A stretch of 64,000 nucleotides of DNA, taken from assembly GCA_018268395.1 (NCBI GenBank), contig JAFDWQ010000009.1, forward strand, positions 248,001 through 312,000. Reading direction: 5' to 3'. A program made the position numbers and the translations under genes. Below, piece after piece: positions 1 through 17,089 of this stretch (position 1 is its first letter; every line of letters begins with the position of its first letter). This DNA comes from Armatimonadota bacterium. Its GTDB lineage: Bacteria > Armatimonadota > Fimbriimonadia > Fimbriimonadales > Fimbriimonadaceae. The notes beneath the pieces are model-generated. The model saw nothing but the letters and a program-made list of their open reading frames with translations, was not told the DNA's origin and did no database searches.

Positions 1-725
1 CGGAAATCGGCCTTAACGGGCACGCTTTTCAGCCCGGCCCACGCCAGGGCCGCAGCTACGATCACGAAGGGGAGCCAGACCAACGCGGCGTTCTGGAGGT
101 AGACCGGATGCGACGTCTTGTCTTTCTCCACGAACGTCTGCCCCGTCCCGATCCAAGCCATCCCGATCACGGCAGGAATGAGGAACTGCGCTACGCTCAC
201 GCCGAAGTTGCCGACGCCGGCCTGGATGCCCAGGGCCGTCCCCTGTTTCGTCTTCGGGAAGAACAGCGACGTGCTCGGCATGAACGAGCTGAAGTTGCCC
301 CCTCCGAGTCCGGCTAAAAAGGCGAGGACGAGAAAGGTCGTATACGACGTCTGAGGGTTCTGGACTGCGGCCGTCCAGCCCAGGCACGGCACGACGAGGA
401 GCACGGTCGAGAGGGCCACGGTCTTGCGTGTCCCGAACAACGGGATGAGGAAGGTATGGACGATCCGGAGCGTCCCAGCGGCCAGGCCCGGCATTGCGGT
501 CAGCCAGAACAGTTGCTGCTTGTCGAACTTGAACCCGACGCCACTCAGTTTGACGACGATGGCGCTCACCATGAACCAGGTGCTGAACGACAGGAACAAG
601 GCGAACGTCGTGAGCCAGAGCGTGCGCCACGCCAGGCGCTTCCCTTCGCCGCCCCATGCTTGGACGTCTTCTGGGTTCCAAGTCGCGGGCAATGGATCTT
701 GATGGGCCGAGGTGGTCAAGGACAA
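1..725 (-). CDS. narK: NarK-type nitrate/nitrite MFS transporter, C-terminus cut by window edge
   Basis: Inner-membrane transporter expected to import nitrate or exchange it for nitrite. The reverse strand reads as one open frame of 241 codons running off the window start. It has hydrophobic helices from about residue 33 and the stretch PSTSLFFPKTKQGTALG followed by IQAGVGNFGVSV, which matches the signature region of NarK/NasA major facilitators (roughly the first half of a 400-450 residue protein). There is no ATG. I choose TTG at 725 because AGGAG (733-737) sits seven bases upstream; a second TTG at 719 is possible. It lies next to a nitrate-reductase-like enzyme on the same strand, which supports the substrate. 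A palindrome at 774-787 lies upstream. Confidence 0.88.
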   Translation of the reverse strand, partial: MSLTTSAHQDPLPATWNPEDVQAWGGEGKRLAWRTLWLTTFALFLSFSTWFMVSAIVVKLSGVGFKFDKQQLFWLTAMPGLAAGTLRIVHTFLIPLFGTRKTVALSTVLLVVPCLGWTAAVQNPQTSYTTFLVLAFLAGLGGGNFSSFMPSTSLFFPKTKQGTALGIQAGVGNFGVSVAQFLIPAVIGMAWIGTGQTFVEKDKTSHPVYLQNAALVWLPFVIVAAALAWAGLKSVPVKADF

Positions 726-773
726 GGTCGTACTCCTGTAAGAAGATCATTGACCTCATCGTCCAGGCACGCT

Positions 774-787
774 ATGACGCCCGTCAT
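774..787 (-). promoter_or_regulatory. Palindromic operator, copy 1, upstream of narK
   Basis: ATGACGCCCGTCAT is a perfect ATGAC-N4-GTCAT inverted repeat. Its centre (780.5) is 32 bases from the centre of a weak -10 box AATGAT (minus strand, 746-751), which is the spacing of a class II CRP/FNR-type activator site. Two further copies lie at 3061-3074 and 5650-5663. The regulator is not in the window; assigning it to the CRP/FNR/DNR family is inference. Confidence 0.6.
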
Positions 788-834
788 GCCCTAGGCCCAA
801 ACCGCCTTGCGGCCCGGGAGGACGACCGTTCCTC

Positions 835-3024
835 TTAGTCCGGTTCGGGACTGTCGGCCTTTGAGATCCGGACGACCGACTTCTTGAATTCGGGGATCTT
901 GCTCACCGGGTCAAGGGCTCGGACGGTCAGGTTGTTCGCCGACTTGCGCCCCGGCCAATGGTAGGGGATGAACACGGTGTCTGGCCGGATCGTGGTCACC
1001 ACCTTGGCCTTGAGGGTGACCGCGCCACGGCGGCTTTCGACGCGGGCCCAATCGCCGTCCTCAAGACCGTGCCGCCCGGCAAGCGTCGGATGGATCTCGA
1101 CATAGGGTTCCGGGCACAGGTCGACGAGCCCTCCGATCCGCCGCGTCTGCGTCCCGCTCAGATACTGCGTCACGATCCGTCCCGTCGTCAGGATGACGGG
1201 GTAGTCGTCGTCGGGCTCTTCGGCCGAGGGACGGTAAGGCGTCGGATGGAAGTGGGCTTTGCCGTCGGCGGTCGGAAACTTCAGGTCTTCGAAGAGCCGG
1301 GGCGTTCCGGGATGTCCGATCTCCGGGCACGGCCAGAAAACGCCCATTTCGTCGACGATCCGCTCGTACGTGATGCCGTAATAGTCGGCCGTCCCTCCTT
1401 TGCTCGCGACGCGGAGCTCGTTGAAGACGTCCTCGCTCGTCTTGAAGTGGTCGAAGAACCCGCCCCGCCCCAACCTCCGCGCGATGTCCAAGAGAATGGA
1501 CGTGTCCGTCCGCGCATCGCCGGGAGGATCGACGGCCTTATTGATCTTGATGACCCGCCCTTCTGCGCTCGTACTCGTCCCTTCTTCCTCTTCGTGCAGG
1601 GATCCCGCCAGCACGATGTCGGCATGATGGGCGGTCTCGCTCAAAAAGAAGTCGATGGCGGTGTAGTGCTCGAGACGGGACAGGGCATCGCGCGTAAAGT
1701 TCGAGTCCGGAAGTGAAACCAAAGGGTTAAAGCAAATCGAGATCAGGGCCTTGATCTCTCCGGCATGGATCCGTTCCATGATCTCCTGGGCCGAGTGGCC
1801 CTTCCGCGGCAGTTCAGGTTCCGGGATGCCCCATACACCGGCAATGTACGACCGGTGTTCCGGATTCTCAATGTCGCGGTTTCCGGGTAGCTGGTCGCAC
1901 TTGTGTCCGTGCTCGCGGCCGCCTTGTCCGTTGCCTTGTCCCGTGATCGTGCCGTATCCGCAACCCGGCCGGCCGATGCGGCCCGTCGCCAACACAAGGT
2001 TGATGCACCCGAGGACGTTGTCGACACCCTTGGTGTGGTGCTCGATCCCACGGGCGTGGAGGAGGAAGCTGGTCTTGGCCTGACCCCACAGACGTGCGGC
2101 CCGCCGGATGTCTTCGACCTCGACCCCACAGATCCGCGACGCCTCCTCCAGCGAAGTCGCCAGCGCGCTCTCTCGGGCGGCTTCGAAGCCCGTCGTGTGG
2201 TCGCGGACGAAAGCCTCGTCGACGTACCCTTCTTCGACCAGGACACGGAGCATCGCAGAGAACAGTGCGGAGTCCGTCCCGGGACGGACGGGCAGGTGGA
2301 GGTCGCACGTCCGGGCTAAGGGCGTGACCCGCGGATCGACCATGACCAGCTTCGCACCCCGGTCGCGGGCGCGCCAAATGTAGTCGGTCGTGATCGGCGA
2401 GCATTCGGCGACGTTCGTCCCCGCACACAGGATGACTTCCGCGGAAAGGATGTCGTCCCACGAATTCGCGGCCCGGTCCATCCCGAACGCCTTCTTGTTG
2501 CCTGCACCGGCGCTGACCATGCAGAGCCGACCGTTGTAATCCAGTTCTTTGGTCTGTAGGGCCACCCGCGCGAACTTGCCGACCAGGTAGCTCTTCTCGT
2601 TCGTCAGCGACACCCCCGACAGCATCGCGACCGCGTCTCTTCCGTACGCCTCCTGGACCCGCCGGATCTCGGACACCGTGGTGGAGAGCGCCTCCTGCCA
2701 GCCGATCGGAACGAAGCCTTGTCCCTCCATCCGCTTCATGGGAGCGAGCAGCCGGTCGGGATGGCTGCCCTGCAAGTAGCGTTTCACACCTTTGGGGCAG
2801 AGCTTGCCGCGGTTGAACGGGAACTCCTCCCACGGCTCGAAGCCGATGACTTTCCCGTCTTTGACTTTCAGTTGAATGCCGCACTGTTGGCCGCAGAAGC
2901 AGCAGTGCGTCTTAACGGTCTTGTCCGGGACACCTCGTCCGGTCCAGCCGCCCGGCGGCTGATGGTTGAGGTGCGGGCCGAACTTCTCGGCGAGCACGGA
3001 CACATCGACCGGCGGACGGGCCAT
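835..3024 (-). CDS. Molybdopterin oxidoreductase, nitrate reductase-like catalytic subunit
   Basis: Large molybdenum bis-MGD enzyme of the DMSO reductase superfamily, most likely reducing nitrate. In the 729-residue form the N-terminal [4Fe-4S] ligands are Cys41, Cys44, Cys48 and Cys76 (CCFCGQQC, then KLCPKG). The probable Mo ligand is Cys168 in GRLCMVSAG. The C-terminal 120 residues form the cofactor-binding domain ([17 protein letters not shown]). No Tat signal precedes the cluster, so a cytoplasmic location is likely. I start at ATG 3024 rather than the longer frame to 3102, because a -10 box CATAAT (3031-3036) lies six bases upstream and the extension has no protein-like character. Neighbours are narK, a NarI-like membrane protein and FeS/Rieske subunits. 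A formate dehydrogenase-like role cannot be excluded from sequence alone. Confidence 0.85.
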
Positions 3025-3140
3025 AGCGCTATTATGCGGCACCTTCGGGCGGTCCACGATATGACGGCTGTCATACGACGACGGACGGACGCATGACAGC
3101 ATAAAGCGGGCGAAGATGGGCTATCTTTATTCGTGAGACC
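3025..3140. promoter_or_regulatory. Divergent promoter region with palindrome copy 2 (3061-3074)
   Basis: ATGACGGCTGTCAT at 3061-3074 sits between the leftward molybdoenzyme and the rightward membrane protein. Leftwards, CATAAT at 3031-3036 is centred 34 bases from the palindrome centre and ends six bases before ATG 3024, implying a leaderless mRNA. Rightwards, CATAAA at 3100-3105 is centred 35 bases away and could serve the gene at 3141. One bound activator could therefore drive both directions. Confidence 0.5.
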
Positions 3141-4196
3141 ATGGTGACCAGCGATCAACGGCGCGATACGGCTTCCACGGCACGGGCCAAAGCGCTCGTC
3201 GCGGCCGTCCTGGCCGCCGGCGCGGTGACCGTCGCGATCGTGGTCGGTTCCGGTTGGTTCCGTCGGTTCGACCCGGCCCTCGCCGCGTACGCGTCGGCCA
3301 CCGTTTTCGCCGCGTTCGCGATCGCCTACCGCTTCGTGATGTGGGTACAACGCCCACCGACCTGGCACTATTTTACGGCGGGTCTGCGACTGTTCTTCCG
3401 ACCGGACCGCCTCGCCGCCAACCTTGTCCGCCTGGTCGTCCTGTTCTGGAACGACATCGTGGCCCAGACCTTCATCGAGAAACGGAGCACCAAACGGTGG
3501 CTCGCCCACATGTCGCTCGCCTGGGGCTGCCTGCTCGCGTTCGCGATCACGTTCCCGCTCAGTTGGGGTTGGATCCAGTTCGGCGTGGCCGCCAACGGCC
3601 ATGACTATGTCGTCGAATTCATGGGCCTTCCGACGATCGCCTTTCCTCCGGACAGCTTCCTAGCGTTCCTGTTCTTCAACGGGTTGAACATCAGCGCCGT
3701 GATGGTGCTCGTCGGAGTGGGTCTTGCCATGCACCGCCGGGTCTTCGAGAGCGGGGCTAGGGCCGTCCAGACCTTGGCCAACGACTTTATGCCCCTGTTC
3801 CTGTTGTTCTCCGTCGCGGTCACGGGCCTGATGTTGACGGCGAGCTATCGGCTGATGGGGGGTTCGCACTTTTCGTTCATCTCGCTCTTGCACGCGTTCA
3901 CCGTCATCGTCTTCCTGCTTTGGTTGCCGTTCGGGAAGTTCTTCCACGTCATCCAGCGGCCCGCTCAGATCGGAGTGGCCTACTACAAGACGGAAGGGGC
4001 CGAGGGGCCTCAGGCTGCTTGCGCCCGCAGCGGGCAGGAGTATCAGTCCCTTCTTCACCACGACGACCTCGTCAACGTCATGCGCCAGGTCGGGCAAGAC
4101 TTCGGGCCGCACCAAGACTTGAGCCCTCAGGAGAAGAGGAAGCTCGTCGCATTGAACCAAGCCGCACTGATCGACGGCGTTCCGTTCGTCGGTTAG
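3141..4196 (+). CDS. NarI/DsrM-like polytopic membrane protein of the nitrate reductase locus
   Basis: A 351-residue integral membrane protein with about six hydrophobic spans between residues 15 and 270 and a soluble C-terminal tail of about 75 residues. Histidines lie in or beside the helices (RWLAHMSLAWGC, LLHAFTVIVFLLW, KFFHVIQRP), as expected for haem b ligands in the NarI/DsrM/HdrE cytochrome b fold. It would pass electrons from quinol to the FeS/Rieske and molybdenum subunits. It is transcribed away from the molybdoenzyme across a shared control region, and its last codons overlap the end of the small membrane gene on the other strand. Haem ligation is inferred from helix-embedded histidines, not from a recognised full motif. 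Confidence 0.65.
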   Translation: MVTSDQRRDTASTARAKALVAAVLAAGAVTVAIVVGSGWFRRFDPALAAYASATVFAAFAIAYRFVMWVQRPPTWHYFTAGLRLFFRPDRLAANLVRLVVLFWNDIVAQTFIEKRSTKRWLAHMSLAWGCLLAFAITFPLSWGWIQFGVAANGHDYVVEFMGLPTIAFPPDSFLAFLFFNGLNISAVMVLVGVGLAMHRRVFESGARAVQTLANDFMPLFLLFSVAVTGLMLTASYRLMGGSHFSFISLLHAFTVIVFLLWLPFGKFFHVIQRPAQIGVAYYKTEGAEGPQAACARSGQEYQSLLHHDDLVNVMRQVGQDFGPHQDLSPQEKRKLVALNQAALIDGVPFVG

Positions 4197-4426
4197 GCGT
4201 CACGGTCGAGACGGTTCACCCCGACCATCATCCACGCGTTCACACCGAGGATCACCAAGCTCCCGAGCGCTGCCGGGACAGCGGCTCCCACCCGGTGCGC
4301 GAGCATGTTCTCGAACGCCATGACGAAGAGCCAGAGTTGAAGGAGGACGAGGACGACGCTGAAGAGCAGGAGCCCTACGAACACGGGCGCCTTCTGCGCC
4401 CGCTGAGGCTTATGCTCCGGCTTCAC
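4193..4426 (-). CDS. Small two-helix membrane protein (possibly DUF6755-like)
   Basis: A 77-residue protein with a basic, polar N-terminus ([12 protein letters not shown]) and two predicted membrane helices (about residues 14-37 and 46-68). It begins with GTG at 4426, overlapping the stop of the Rieske gene in GTGA, so it is probably translationally coupled to it. It resembles in size and layout the small membrane proteins found with Rieske/FeS/molybdoenzyme clusters. The family name is from memory and should be treated as a guess. A likely role is anchoring or assembly of the complex. Confidence 0.6.
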   Translation of the reverse strand: MKPEHKPQRAQKAPVFVGLLLFSVVLVLLQLWLFVMAFENMLAHRVGAAVPAALGSLVILGVNAWMMVGVNRLDRDA

Positions 4427-4926
4427 GCCCGCCCTCCCTCGCCACGTCGAACGCCGACGGCCCAGACCGCTCCGTCCCGTATCTCGAGCGCGATCCGCGG
4501 CAACGGTTCCGGAGGCGGGCCTTGCAGGACACGGCCGTCCTCCACCGCGAAGGCACCGTTATGGCACGGGCAGACGAGCCTCTCGGCGCTCGGGTCGAAG
4601 TCGACCGGACAAGAGAGGTGGGTACAGCGGCGGGAATAGGCCGCGAACTCGCCTGTACGCCTTCGGATCAAGATGCAGACGTCCTTGTCTCCCGGATAGG
4701 CGAAAGCCACCGAACTACCGGGGGGCACGTCGTCCACGGACGCGATTTTGAGGGGACGGTGCTCCTCGGGCTTCATGGGCAGCGACGTGACGAGGGCGAC
4801 CGCCGAAGTCCCGACGGCCAGGCCGCCGCTGGCGAGCGTCATGAAACGGAAGAACTCGCGACGGGACACGTAAGAGTCGTCGTCCCAATCGATCGGAAAC
4901 TCAGATGCCAAGCGTTCGTCTTTCAT
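4423..4926 (-). CDS. Rieske [2Fe-2S] protein of the nitrate reductase complex
   Basis: A 167-residue protein with an N-terminal SRREFF twin-arginine-like motif (residues 21-26) followed by a hydrophobic helix to about residue 49, so it is probably a Tat-exported, membrane-anchored subunit. The Rieske ligands are Cys101/His103 (CTHLSC) and Cys119/His122 (CPCH). Cys106 and Cys121 are also present, so the cluster-stabilising disulphide of high-potential Rieske proteins can form. The ATG at 4926 overlaps the stop of the upstream FeS gene (ATGA), and its own stop overlaps the next start, giving a tight three-gene operon. The export signal contrasts with the signal-less molybdoenzyme, which raises the question of topology. 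Confidence 0.88.
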
Positions 4927-5522
4927 CGGATCCTCGCACTCTCGAGCAGGTCGGTCTTGCGGACGAGGACGCCTGTCTTCACGTCCAACCGCGCGTGCCC
5001 GGCGGGCATCATCAGGCTGACCTTGGTCGTGACGACCTTGCCGCCGAACCGGAACTCGTTGACGGGCGTCCCGCCGCGCTGCGCGGCGATCTCCTCGGCC
5101 GTACCGAAGAACAGGGCTTGTGACGGGCACACCGTCGCGCACATCGGCTTCTTACCGACGGAGGTGCGGTCGTAGCACATGTCGCACTTCATCATTTGGT
5201 CGATCTGCGCGTCGTACTTCGGCACACCGAAGGGACAGGCGAACACACAGTTCGTACATCCGATGCACCTGGGTTTCAGAGAGCTTTGGACGACACCGTC
5301 CGGTGTCCGTTTGATCGCGTCCGCCGGGCAAACGGCGGCGCACGCGGGATCGTCGCAGTGCATGCAGACGACCGGGGTCGTCTGCACGGTGTCGCCCCGC
5401 GCGACCGTCTCCAGATGGATCATCGAAACGCCGGCGTGCGTGTCGCACTCGGCGCACGCTGCCACGCAAGCGTTGCATCCGATACACCGGCTCGGATCGA
5501 TGTAGAACCTTTTCTCCATCAT
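4923..5522 (-). CDS. Four-cluster ferredoxin-type electron transfer subunit (DmsB/NrfC/HybA family)
   Basis: A 199-residue FeS protein with sixteen cysteines in four ferredoxin motifs: Cys13/16/19/23, Cys53/56/61/65, Cys86/89/92/96 and Cys113/116/128/132, enough for four [4Fe-4S] clusters. Such subunits connect a molybdoenzyme to a quinol-oxidising membrane partner. There is no signal peptide. I choose ATG 5522 (MMEKRF) because CATACT (5529-5534) ends six bases upstream; a longer frame to 5630 adds 36 residues with no recognisable character. First gene of the operon FeS-Rieske-small membrane protein. Confidence 0.85.
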
Positions 5523-5747
5523 ACGTTCAGTATGCAACGGGCACCCTGCACTCGGGTTCGTAAGGAACCGACGCGGCTCAGGACTCCCTTCTTCGTCAGC
5601 GCGACCTCGCCCACCGAAGACAGTGTCCACCGTGCGCCGGGGTCACGACATGACGACCGTCATAGGCCCGGACCACAGCGGCCAAGGCTTATCGCACCGA
5701 TCCGATAACGGGCCGTACCGTCTGGTCCAGGATTCAGCCGGTGTGAA
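5523..5747. promoter_or_regulatory. Intergenic region with palindrome copy 3 (5650-5663)
   Basis: ATGACGACCGTCAT at 5650-5663 is the third copy of the ATGACGNCNGTCAT element. At class II spacing the minus-strand -10 would fall near 5622-5627 (GACACT, weak), giving a leader of about 90 bases. A separate box CATACT at 5529-5534 lies right before ATG 5522. Nothing else is recognisable here. Confidence 0.5.
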
Positions 5748-16204: not shown

Positions 16205-17089
16205 ATGAAAGTCGTCATCGGTACGGACTTGGCACGCAACTTCGAGCAGGCTGTCGAAGTCTTGACCGCCCTCAAGTTTCCCGACCTCGAAGCCGTCGTC
16301 GTCAACGTCGTCGAACCTGTGGTGACGGCCGCTGGCTCAGGCGAGTTCGCGTCCATGGGGGTCATGTCGCTTCTCGTCGAAGACCTTCAAAACGCGGGGC
16401 ATGCGGTCGTCAAGGAGGCCTCTGACGAATTGATCGGCCGCGGAATCCGGTGCGAATCGACCGTCCTGTCCGGTCAGCCTGCAGGTTGCCTCACGGACGT
16501 CGCCAAGGAAAAGGGTGCGGACCTTGTCGTCATCGGCGGGCCCGTCCGCTCGCTGTTCGAGAAGTTTTTGACCGGAAGCGTGTCACGGGACCTGGCCGTT
16601 TCGGCCGAACAGTCGGTCTTGATCGGGAGAAAGAGCCCGTCATCGGACAATGGGCTCACAGTGCTCTTTGCCCACGACCACTCTGACTATTGCGACCGTG
16701 CCCTGGACCGTTTCGTGGCGATGCGGCCCGCAGGGATCGTCAAAGTCGTCTTGGTGACGGCCGACACGACCGATTCCGCGATCGTCGCCCTGACCGAGAG
16801 GGACATGCCCCAGATCCCGGGTGAAGCGATCGTCTCGGTCAAGGACTTCCTCGCCCAGCGGACCGAAGCGGCAAAGACCAGGTTGCAAGCGTTGGGCTGC
16901 CCGGTCGAGAGCCACGTCGTCGAGGGCGACGCGAACGCCGTCCTGTCCCGGGCGATGAAGGAGCACGCGGCCGACCTTATGGTGATGGGAGCGAAAGGCC
17001 ACGGGTTCATCGAACGGCTGTTCTTGGGGAGCGTCGCGCTGCACCATGTCGTCCGGGAAGACTACAACCTGCTTCTGGTCAGAGCCTGA
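16205..17089 (+). CDS. Tandem universal stress protein (two UspA domains)
   Basis: A 294-residue protein made of two UspA folds of about 145 residues. The second domain has the ATP-binding signature GAKGHG-x9-GS near its end (MGAKGHGFIERLFLGSV). The first has a degraded version, GGPVRSLFEKFLTGSV. So nucleotide binding is probable in the C-terminal half only. Such proteins act in the cytoplasm during starvation or stress. It lies between GH127 and the Lnt-like gene without overlap. The target is unknown. Confidence 0.88.
   Translation: MKVVIGTDLARNFEQAVEVLTALKFPDLEAVVVNVVEPVVTAAGSGEFASMGVMSLLVEDLQNAGHAVVKEASDELIGRGIRCESTVLSGQPAGCLTDVAKEKGADLVVIGGPVRSLFEKFLTGSVSRDLAVSAEQSVLIGRKSPSSDNGLTVLFAHDHSDYCDRALDRFVAMRPAGIVKVVLVTADTTDSAIVALTERDMPQIPGEAIVSVKDFLAQRTEAAKTRLQALGCPVESHVVEGDANAVLSRAMKEHAADLMVMGAKGHGFIERLFLGSVALHHVVREDYNLLLVRA

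Follow-up and report, generated by a model that had tools for sequence, protein, structure and literature searches.

Three palindromes at a nitrate-respiration locus

The DNA considered here is a 64-kb stretch from an Armatimonadota genome of the family Fimbriimonadaceae (contig JAFDWQ010000009.1, positions 248,001 to 312,000; hereafter the window, with positions counted from its first base), and this work concerns the palindromes that stand ahead of its nitrate-respiration genes and the CRP/FNR-family protein predicted to bind them. The 5' part of a gene for a NarK-family nitrate/nitrite transporter lies at 1..725 on the minus strand, with a TTG start at or near 725 and AGGAG ahead of it; the gene continues past the window, and in full (L016:18388-19725) it matches PF07690 and scores 309.4 bits against TIGR00886, just below the cut-off of 311.7. 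Next come a gene for a NasC-like molybdopterin nitrate reductase catalytic subunit of 729 aa (835..3024, minus strand; PF00384, PF01568 and PF04879), whose top NCBIfam model is NasC NF047855 (823 bits, under the cut-off of 1100), and, divergent from it, a gene for a NarI/QmoC-like membrane protein with weak QmoC/DsrM similarity (3141..4196, plus strand). An operon on the minus strand encodes a Rieske [2Fe-2S] protein (4423..4926; PF00355) and a 4Fe-4S electron-transfer (FeS) protein of the DmsB/NrfC type (4923..5519; PF13247, with TIGR02951 below its cut-off).

The first-pass annotation had reported three near-identical palindromes before these genes, and a fresh search agrees with it: exact copies of ATGACNNNNGTCAT are found at 774-787, 3061-3074 and 5650-5663, all intergenic, and nowhere else in the 64 kb. 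Operator 1 (774..787, ATGACGCCCGTCAT) lies upstream of the leftward narK-type gene, operator 2 (3061..3074, ATGACGGCTGTCAT), which has the full form TATGAC-N4-GTCATA, lies between the divergent molybdoenzyme and NarI-like genes, and operator 3 (5650..5663, ATGACGACCGTCAT) lies upstream of the leftward FeS-Rieske operon; none is assigned a strand. ATGACGNCNGTCAT fits all three, with a spacer that varies elsewhere, and the consensus is longer than the 14-mer: TATGA[C/T]-N4-[G/A]TCATA. The sole one-mismatch copy in the window (ATGAAAGTCGTCAT, 16205-16218) looks like a chance occurrence. Two of the three sites do stand, as had been noticed, at class II spacing to a candidate -10 element on the minus strand: AATGAT (746..751, matching 4/6 positions) is centred 32 bases from operator 1 and CATAAT (3031..3036, 5/6), for the molybdoenzyme gene, 34 bases from operator 2. 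Operator 2 and the molybdoenzyme ATG (3024) have 36 bases between them, and the predicted FeS ATG (5519) is about 130 bases from operator 3. The NarI-like gene, whose orthologue is present in 22 of 61 genomes, possibly shares operator 2; a weak candidate rightward -10, CATAAA (3100..3105, plus strand), is found 35 bases from the operator centre, and no separate conserved rightward site exists among the orthologues of this gene outside this genome.

The sites are conserved in related genomes, upstream of orthologues of all three target genes. When exact ATGAY-N4-RTCAT upstream of an orthologue is counted, this genome included, a site precedes 13 of 17 narK genes, 14 of 23 molybdoenzyme genes (13 of these 14 have it 48-51 bases ahead of the ATG, measured from the site start) and 13 of 24 FeS genes (most commonly at about 52 bases before the ATG); by chance about 0.002 would be expected per searched stretch (genome rate 22 copies per 3.72 Mb). 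The background of the exact pattern, taken as 141 one-mismatch places divided by 30 variants, is about 4.7 per genome, and given that rate three exact copies within 64 kb have a P of about 8e-5.

Copies elsewhere in the genome

The whole genome (G000, 3.72 Mb) holds 15 exact copies of ATGAC-N4-GTCAT against about 4.7 expected (P ~1e-4), most of them before nitrogen-oxide or respiratory genes; 156 places match with up to one mismatch, these 15 among them, and the same pattern read backwards, which served as a control, has 0 copies. Inspection of 20 kb around every copy placed 9 of the 15 in promoter positions beside nitrate, nitrite or related respiratory genes, and all nine have a T before or an A after the 14-mer, four of them both. 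The earlier proposal of a CRP/FNR-type regulon of nitrate genes is supported, and neither of the two outcomes it had named as refuting, many random copies unlinked to nitrate or respiratory genes and a lack of conservation of the three sites, was seen. The set extends beyond the window and includes promoters other than leftward ones.

Six of the nine promoter-placed copies lie outside the window. C9:238199 and C9:238295, 10 kb left of the window sites, occupy the gap between a porin gene (PF13372) and the gene for a second molybdoenzyme, which resembles the DMSO-reductase type II group; behind it come genes for cytochrome c, Rieske, cytochrome b and NarK-like proteins. C3:22756 precedes a gene for an HAO-like multihaem cytochrome (PF13447), a gene present in just 3 of 60 relatives, and C3:24170 stands ahead of an NnrS-like gene (PF05940, below cut-off), behind which lies the regulator gene described below. 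C5:286579 stands before genes for a small multihaem NrfH-like protein and NrfA (PF02335, 499 bits). C1:470932, the least convincing of the nine, has a PAS-LuxR gene on one side and on the other a group encoding a membrane protein, a Rieske protein, cytochrome b and a bd-like protein that carries a cytochrome c domain. At L017:10149-14202, behind one of the sites, stands a group for a family-less membrane protein, a Rieske protein, cytochrome b and a protein resembling bd oxidase to which a cytochrome c domain is fused.

The remaining 6 of the 15 copies are close in number to the expected background of about 5. C1:471373 is within a coding frame, lacks the T/A flanks and was counted as background. 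C3:467123, C4:9409, C5:391274, C6:15372 and C10:130217 were rejected as members because no nitrogen-oxide link was found for them and none has the full tATGAC...GTCATa; at least two of these five are inside ABC-permease frames.

A CRP/FNR-family protein linked to the palindromes

A gene of the CRP/FNR family, whose existence the first-pass annotation had only surmised, is present at C3:25656-26366 (L018:12157-12870, plus strand), directly downstream of the NnrS-like gene and in the pair that has the site C3:24170 ahead of it; an Hsp20 gene (L018:12993-13562) lies directly downstream of it in turn. Its product of 237 residues matches PF00027 (62 bits) and PF13545 (65 bits), both above cut-off, is the best of the three HTH_Crp_2 proteins above cut-off in this genome and is very likely the regulator of the sites, with TATGACGGCTGTCATA as its predicted target duplex. 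A cyclic-nucleotide-binding-like beta barrel in the N-terminal part and a Crp-type helix-turn-helix in the C-terminal part place it in the CRP/FNR superfamily, and the AlphaFold model of an orthologue (mean pLDDT, the predicted local distance difference test score, 92) matches GlxR, CRP, NtcA and FNR at 16-25% identity. FNR has V/E/R in its recognition helix. The recognition helix here, GTTVE[S/T]xIR, has the same FNR-like combination at CRP positions V180/E181/R185, which fits an FNR-like TGA core by the correlation given in PMC1274295. The FNR set of Fe-S cysteines was not found, there being no cysteine in the invariant or nearly invariant columns of alignments A1 or A2, and in the profile alignment to GlxR the Glu and the Arg-Ser/Thr of the cyclic AMP (cAMP) phosphate-binding cassette (E72 and R82-S83 in E. 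coli CRP numbering) are replaced.

Of the 61 genomes searched, 31, this one among them, have a close orthologue of the regulator (E < 1e-50), and the named relatives are Fimbriimonadia (Armatimonadota). The arrangement of an NnrS-like gene with a site ahead and the regulator behind recurs in relatives, and G012 and G030 have the genes for the regulator, the NarI-like protein and the molybdoenzyme in direct succession, head to tail on one strand. Among the genes with a site ahead of them in the loci of relatives are those for NarK-type transporters, porins, the second molybdoenzyme, the FeS protein, MoaA and MobA-like proteins of the molybdenum cofactor, a CMD-family protein and the NnrS-like protein, and in Rokubacteria DUF2249 genes.

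The link between protein and motif was computed with the motif left out of the input. All 5-base palindromes with spacers of 0-10 bases (11,264 types) were scanned in 30 loci around the regulator, 29 of them titled Armatimonadota or Fimbriimonadia and the thirtieth L088; TATGA-N6-TCATA headed the ranking, with 33 copies in 23 loci where 0.07 were expected, and was followed by ATGAC-N4-GTCAT (29 copies in 20 loci, 0.17 expected). The majority of the Fimbriimonadia-clade loci have at least one site. L088 (JADZEW010000018.1) is titled Methanoregulaceae archaeon, and its regulator is nested in the Fimbriimonadia clade; it is probably a wrongly binned contig. TATGA-N6-TCATA was again first in 10 Rokubacteria/Methylomirabilota loci with more distant homologues (11 copies in 8 loci, from ten proteins that are closely related to one another and so not independent), and sites are also present in the three Myxococcota loci and a few Nitrospirota loci. 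In the Rokubacteria loci L104:7180 and L113:3801, DUF2249 genes that neighbour CRP/FNR homologues have the operator across their predicted starts, which indicates that the motif reaches beyond Armatimonadota.

Across 61 whole genomes the density of sites was 2.08/Mb in those with a close orthologue and 0.66/Mb in those without (Mann-Whitney P 2e-7), a difference that holds within the window's own family (P 3e-4), these P-values being rough because the genomes are related and not independent; the reversed-pattern control gave 0.21/Mb with and 0.28/Mb without a close orthologue. Copy numbers are 0-4 in nine genomes of genus g37 whose only homologue of the regulator is a distant one.

Promoter geometry

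At FNR and CRP promoters of class II the activator's site is centred near -41.5, about 31-32 bases from the -10 centre. We examined 174 non-redundant oriented sites of relatives, every palindrome being read both ways, and found that TAnnnT peaks at 31-33 bases from the site centre (25 occurrences where 2.7 are expected, P ~4e-16) and ATG at 48-50 bases, measured from the site start (38 occurrences, with 8 expected); the true fraction of sites with these elements is underestimated because both orientations were counted. ATG has a second, smaller peak at 40-41 bases, with 14 and 9 occurrences where about 2.7 are expected. The 31-33 peak agrees with class II promoters in the relatives, and in this genome some sites fit the arrangement and others do not, the clearest case being operator 2, with CATAAT at 3031-3036 and the ATG at 3024; the candidate transcript start of the molybdoenzyme gene, predicted from these positions, is close to that ATG. 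The 48-50 peak puts the start codon at the expected start of transcription or no more than a few bases from it, which suggests that the mRNAs of many targets may lack a leader.

A predicted circuit for nitrate-to-ammonium respiration

We hold it to be highly probable that the palindromes are the operators of a dimeric CRP/FNR-family activator, the protein of C3:25656-26366, which would run a nitrate-to-ammonium programme. The sites, their conservation, the regulator link and the promoter spacing come from computation; we infer binding, activation and not repression, leaderless transcripts, the enzyme reactions and the signal. The recognition helix GTTVE[S/T]xIR would contact each half-site TATGA[C/T]. 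Once the signal is present, the dimer would occupy the DNA about 41-42 bases ahead of the transcript start and bring in RNA polymerase in the class II manner. NarK nitrate uptake and two nitrate-reductase-type molybdoenzymes with their electron-transfer partners would thereby be switched on, together with the ammonia-forming nitrite reductase NrfHA, the HAO-like multihaem cytochrome and the outer-membrane porin, while the regulator would activate its own gene along with the NnrS-like gene; the outcome would be a respiratory nitrate-to-ammonium programme. Given that the targets include NnrS-like, HAO-like and NrfHA genes and that neither FNR-type cysteines nor a cAMP pocket is present, the probable signal is a nitrogen oxide, be it nitric oxide or another.

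Several observations weigh against this reading. No exact site was found upstream of 9 of 23 molybdoenzyme, 11 of 24 FeS and 4 of 17 narK orthologues, some of which are operon-internal, and three genomes (G006, G025 and G026) have a close orthologue yet only 2 exact sites. A clean -10 accompanies only a minority of site orientations, in part a result of reading each palindrome both ways, and in this genome no good -10 was found at class II distance from operator 3, from C5:286579 (nrfHA) or from C9:238199 (porin). The genome also encodes two other CRP-type helix-turn-helix proteins above the family cut-off (C10:96953 and C10:198084), and the relatedness of the genomes makes the P-values rough.

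The same regulator might bind the sites mainly as a repressor or with a dual role, nitrate or nitric oxide relieving the repression. Activation does not suit every position, given the pair C9:238199 and C9:238295 between the divergent porin and molybdoenzyme genes and the distance of operator 3 from the FeS ATG; however, the -10 peak at 31-33 bases is class II activator geometry, and one would look for a repressor to cover the -10 or the start at less constant distances, so that we think repression an unlikely principal role. A different regulator, such as one of the two other CRP-type proteins or the PAS-LuxR protein whose gene adjoins C1:470932, is a poorer candidate still: that three HTH_Crp_2 proteins exceed the cut-off and that the PAS-LuxR gene lies next to a site speak for it, but the loci of C3-regulator orthologues are enriched in the motif, genus g37 genomes with only its distant homologue hold few copies, and its close orthologues adjoin target genes in relatives. 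We give this idea little credence. It is hardly conceivable that chance or coding constraint produced the three copies. Among all 15 in the genome, six are background-like, with five unlinked to nitrogen-oxide genes and C1:471373 in a coding frame, but the three in the window are intergenic, fall within 4.9 kb and are kept in place across genera; this conservation and the copy statistics rule chance out.

Comparison with known regulators

The activator and its operator are predicted to form a new regulon with a new motif within a known regulator family. HcpR of delta-proteobacteria and cyanobacteria, whose targets centre on hcp and frdX and whose motif is wyTTGACnnnnGTCAArw (PMC1274295), is like it in belonging to the CRP/FNR family, serving nitrogen-oxide genes, having a TGAC-N4-GTCA core and lacking the FNR cysteines, but here the outer base is A and not T, the site extends to TATGA...TCATA and the targets are those of nitrate/nitrite respiration. 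The HcpR paper was the sole match to the motif string in the literature searched, and the HcpR-type TTGAC-N4-GTCAA was not among the top enriched palindromes of the 11,264-type scan of regulator loci. DNR of Pseudomonas and beta-proteobacteria (motif CTTGATnnnnATCAAG; PMC1274295) is likewise a CRP/FNR-family activator of nitrogen-oxide respiration, but its motif differs and its structure (3dkw) is only a distant match (44.8 bits). An FNR/DNR-type TTGAT box was ruled out for the window sites, as TTGAT-N4-ATCAA has no window match at one mismatch or fewer; nor is it among the top palindromes in Fimbriimonadia loci. NnrR of alpha-proteobacteria (motif ctTTGcgnnnncgCAAag; PMC1274295) shares the family and has nnrS and nitrogen-oxide genes as targets, but its motif differs from TATGA[C/T]-N4-[G/A]TCATA. 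DNR and NnrR respond to nitric oxide, with haem in DNR. FNR resembles the regulator in fold, N4-spaced palindrome, class II promoter geometry and V/E/R recognition helix, and is unlike it in its conserved Fe-S cysteines and its motif, TTGATnnnnATCAA. GlxR (4byy) is the best structural match to the orthologue's model at 20% identity, whereas its cAMP-contact stretch is GELSIFDPGPRTSSAV where the profile has GllavlegrpyplsAv, and the motif and spacer of GlxR/CRP differ. RedB, a recently described CRP/FNR subgroup, was ruled out by its non-palindromic AT-rich motif (PMC9603854).

We lean, by a small margin, towards an old unnamed CRP/FNR subfamily with the operator TATGA[C/T]-N4-[G/A]TCATA, which would control nitrogen-oxide respiration in at least the Armatimonadota and Rokubacteria/Methylomirabilota (and possibly Myxococcota), sense its signal with neither Fe-S cysteines nor cAMP and act at leaderless class II promoters. 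The literature searched yielded no description of nitrate/nitrite regulation for any of the Armatimonadota, and the present prediction gives the Fimbriimonadia, a poorly studied group, a first nitrate/nitrite control circuit. Defined regulator, operator and targets make function predictable from sequence in a group known mainly from metagenomes, and the apparent class II promoters with a start codon at the transcript start offer a simple test of leaderless translation in the phylum.

A further molybdoenzyme gene in G000 (C6:7641-9683), with 35% identity to that of the window, contains one in-frame TAG; its counterparts in G015 and G029 contain one in-frame TGA each, which could encode selenocysteine as in some formate dehydrogenases.

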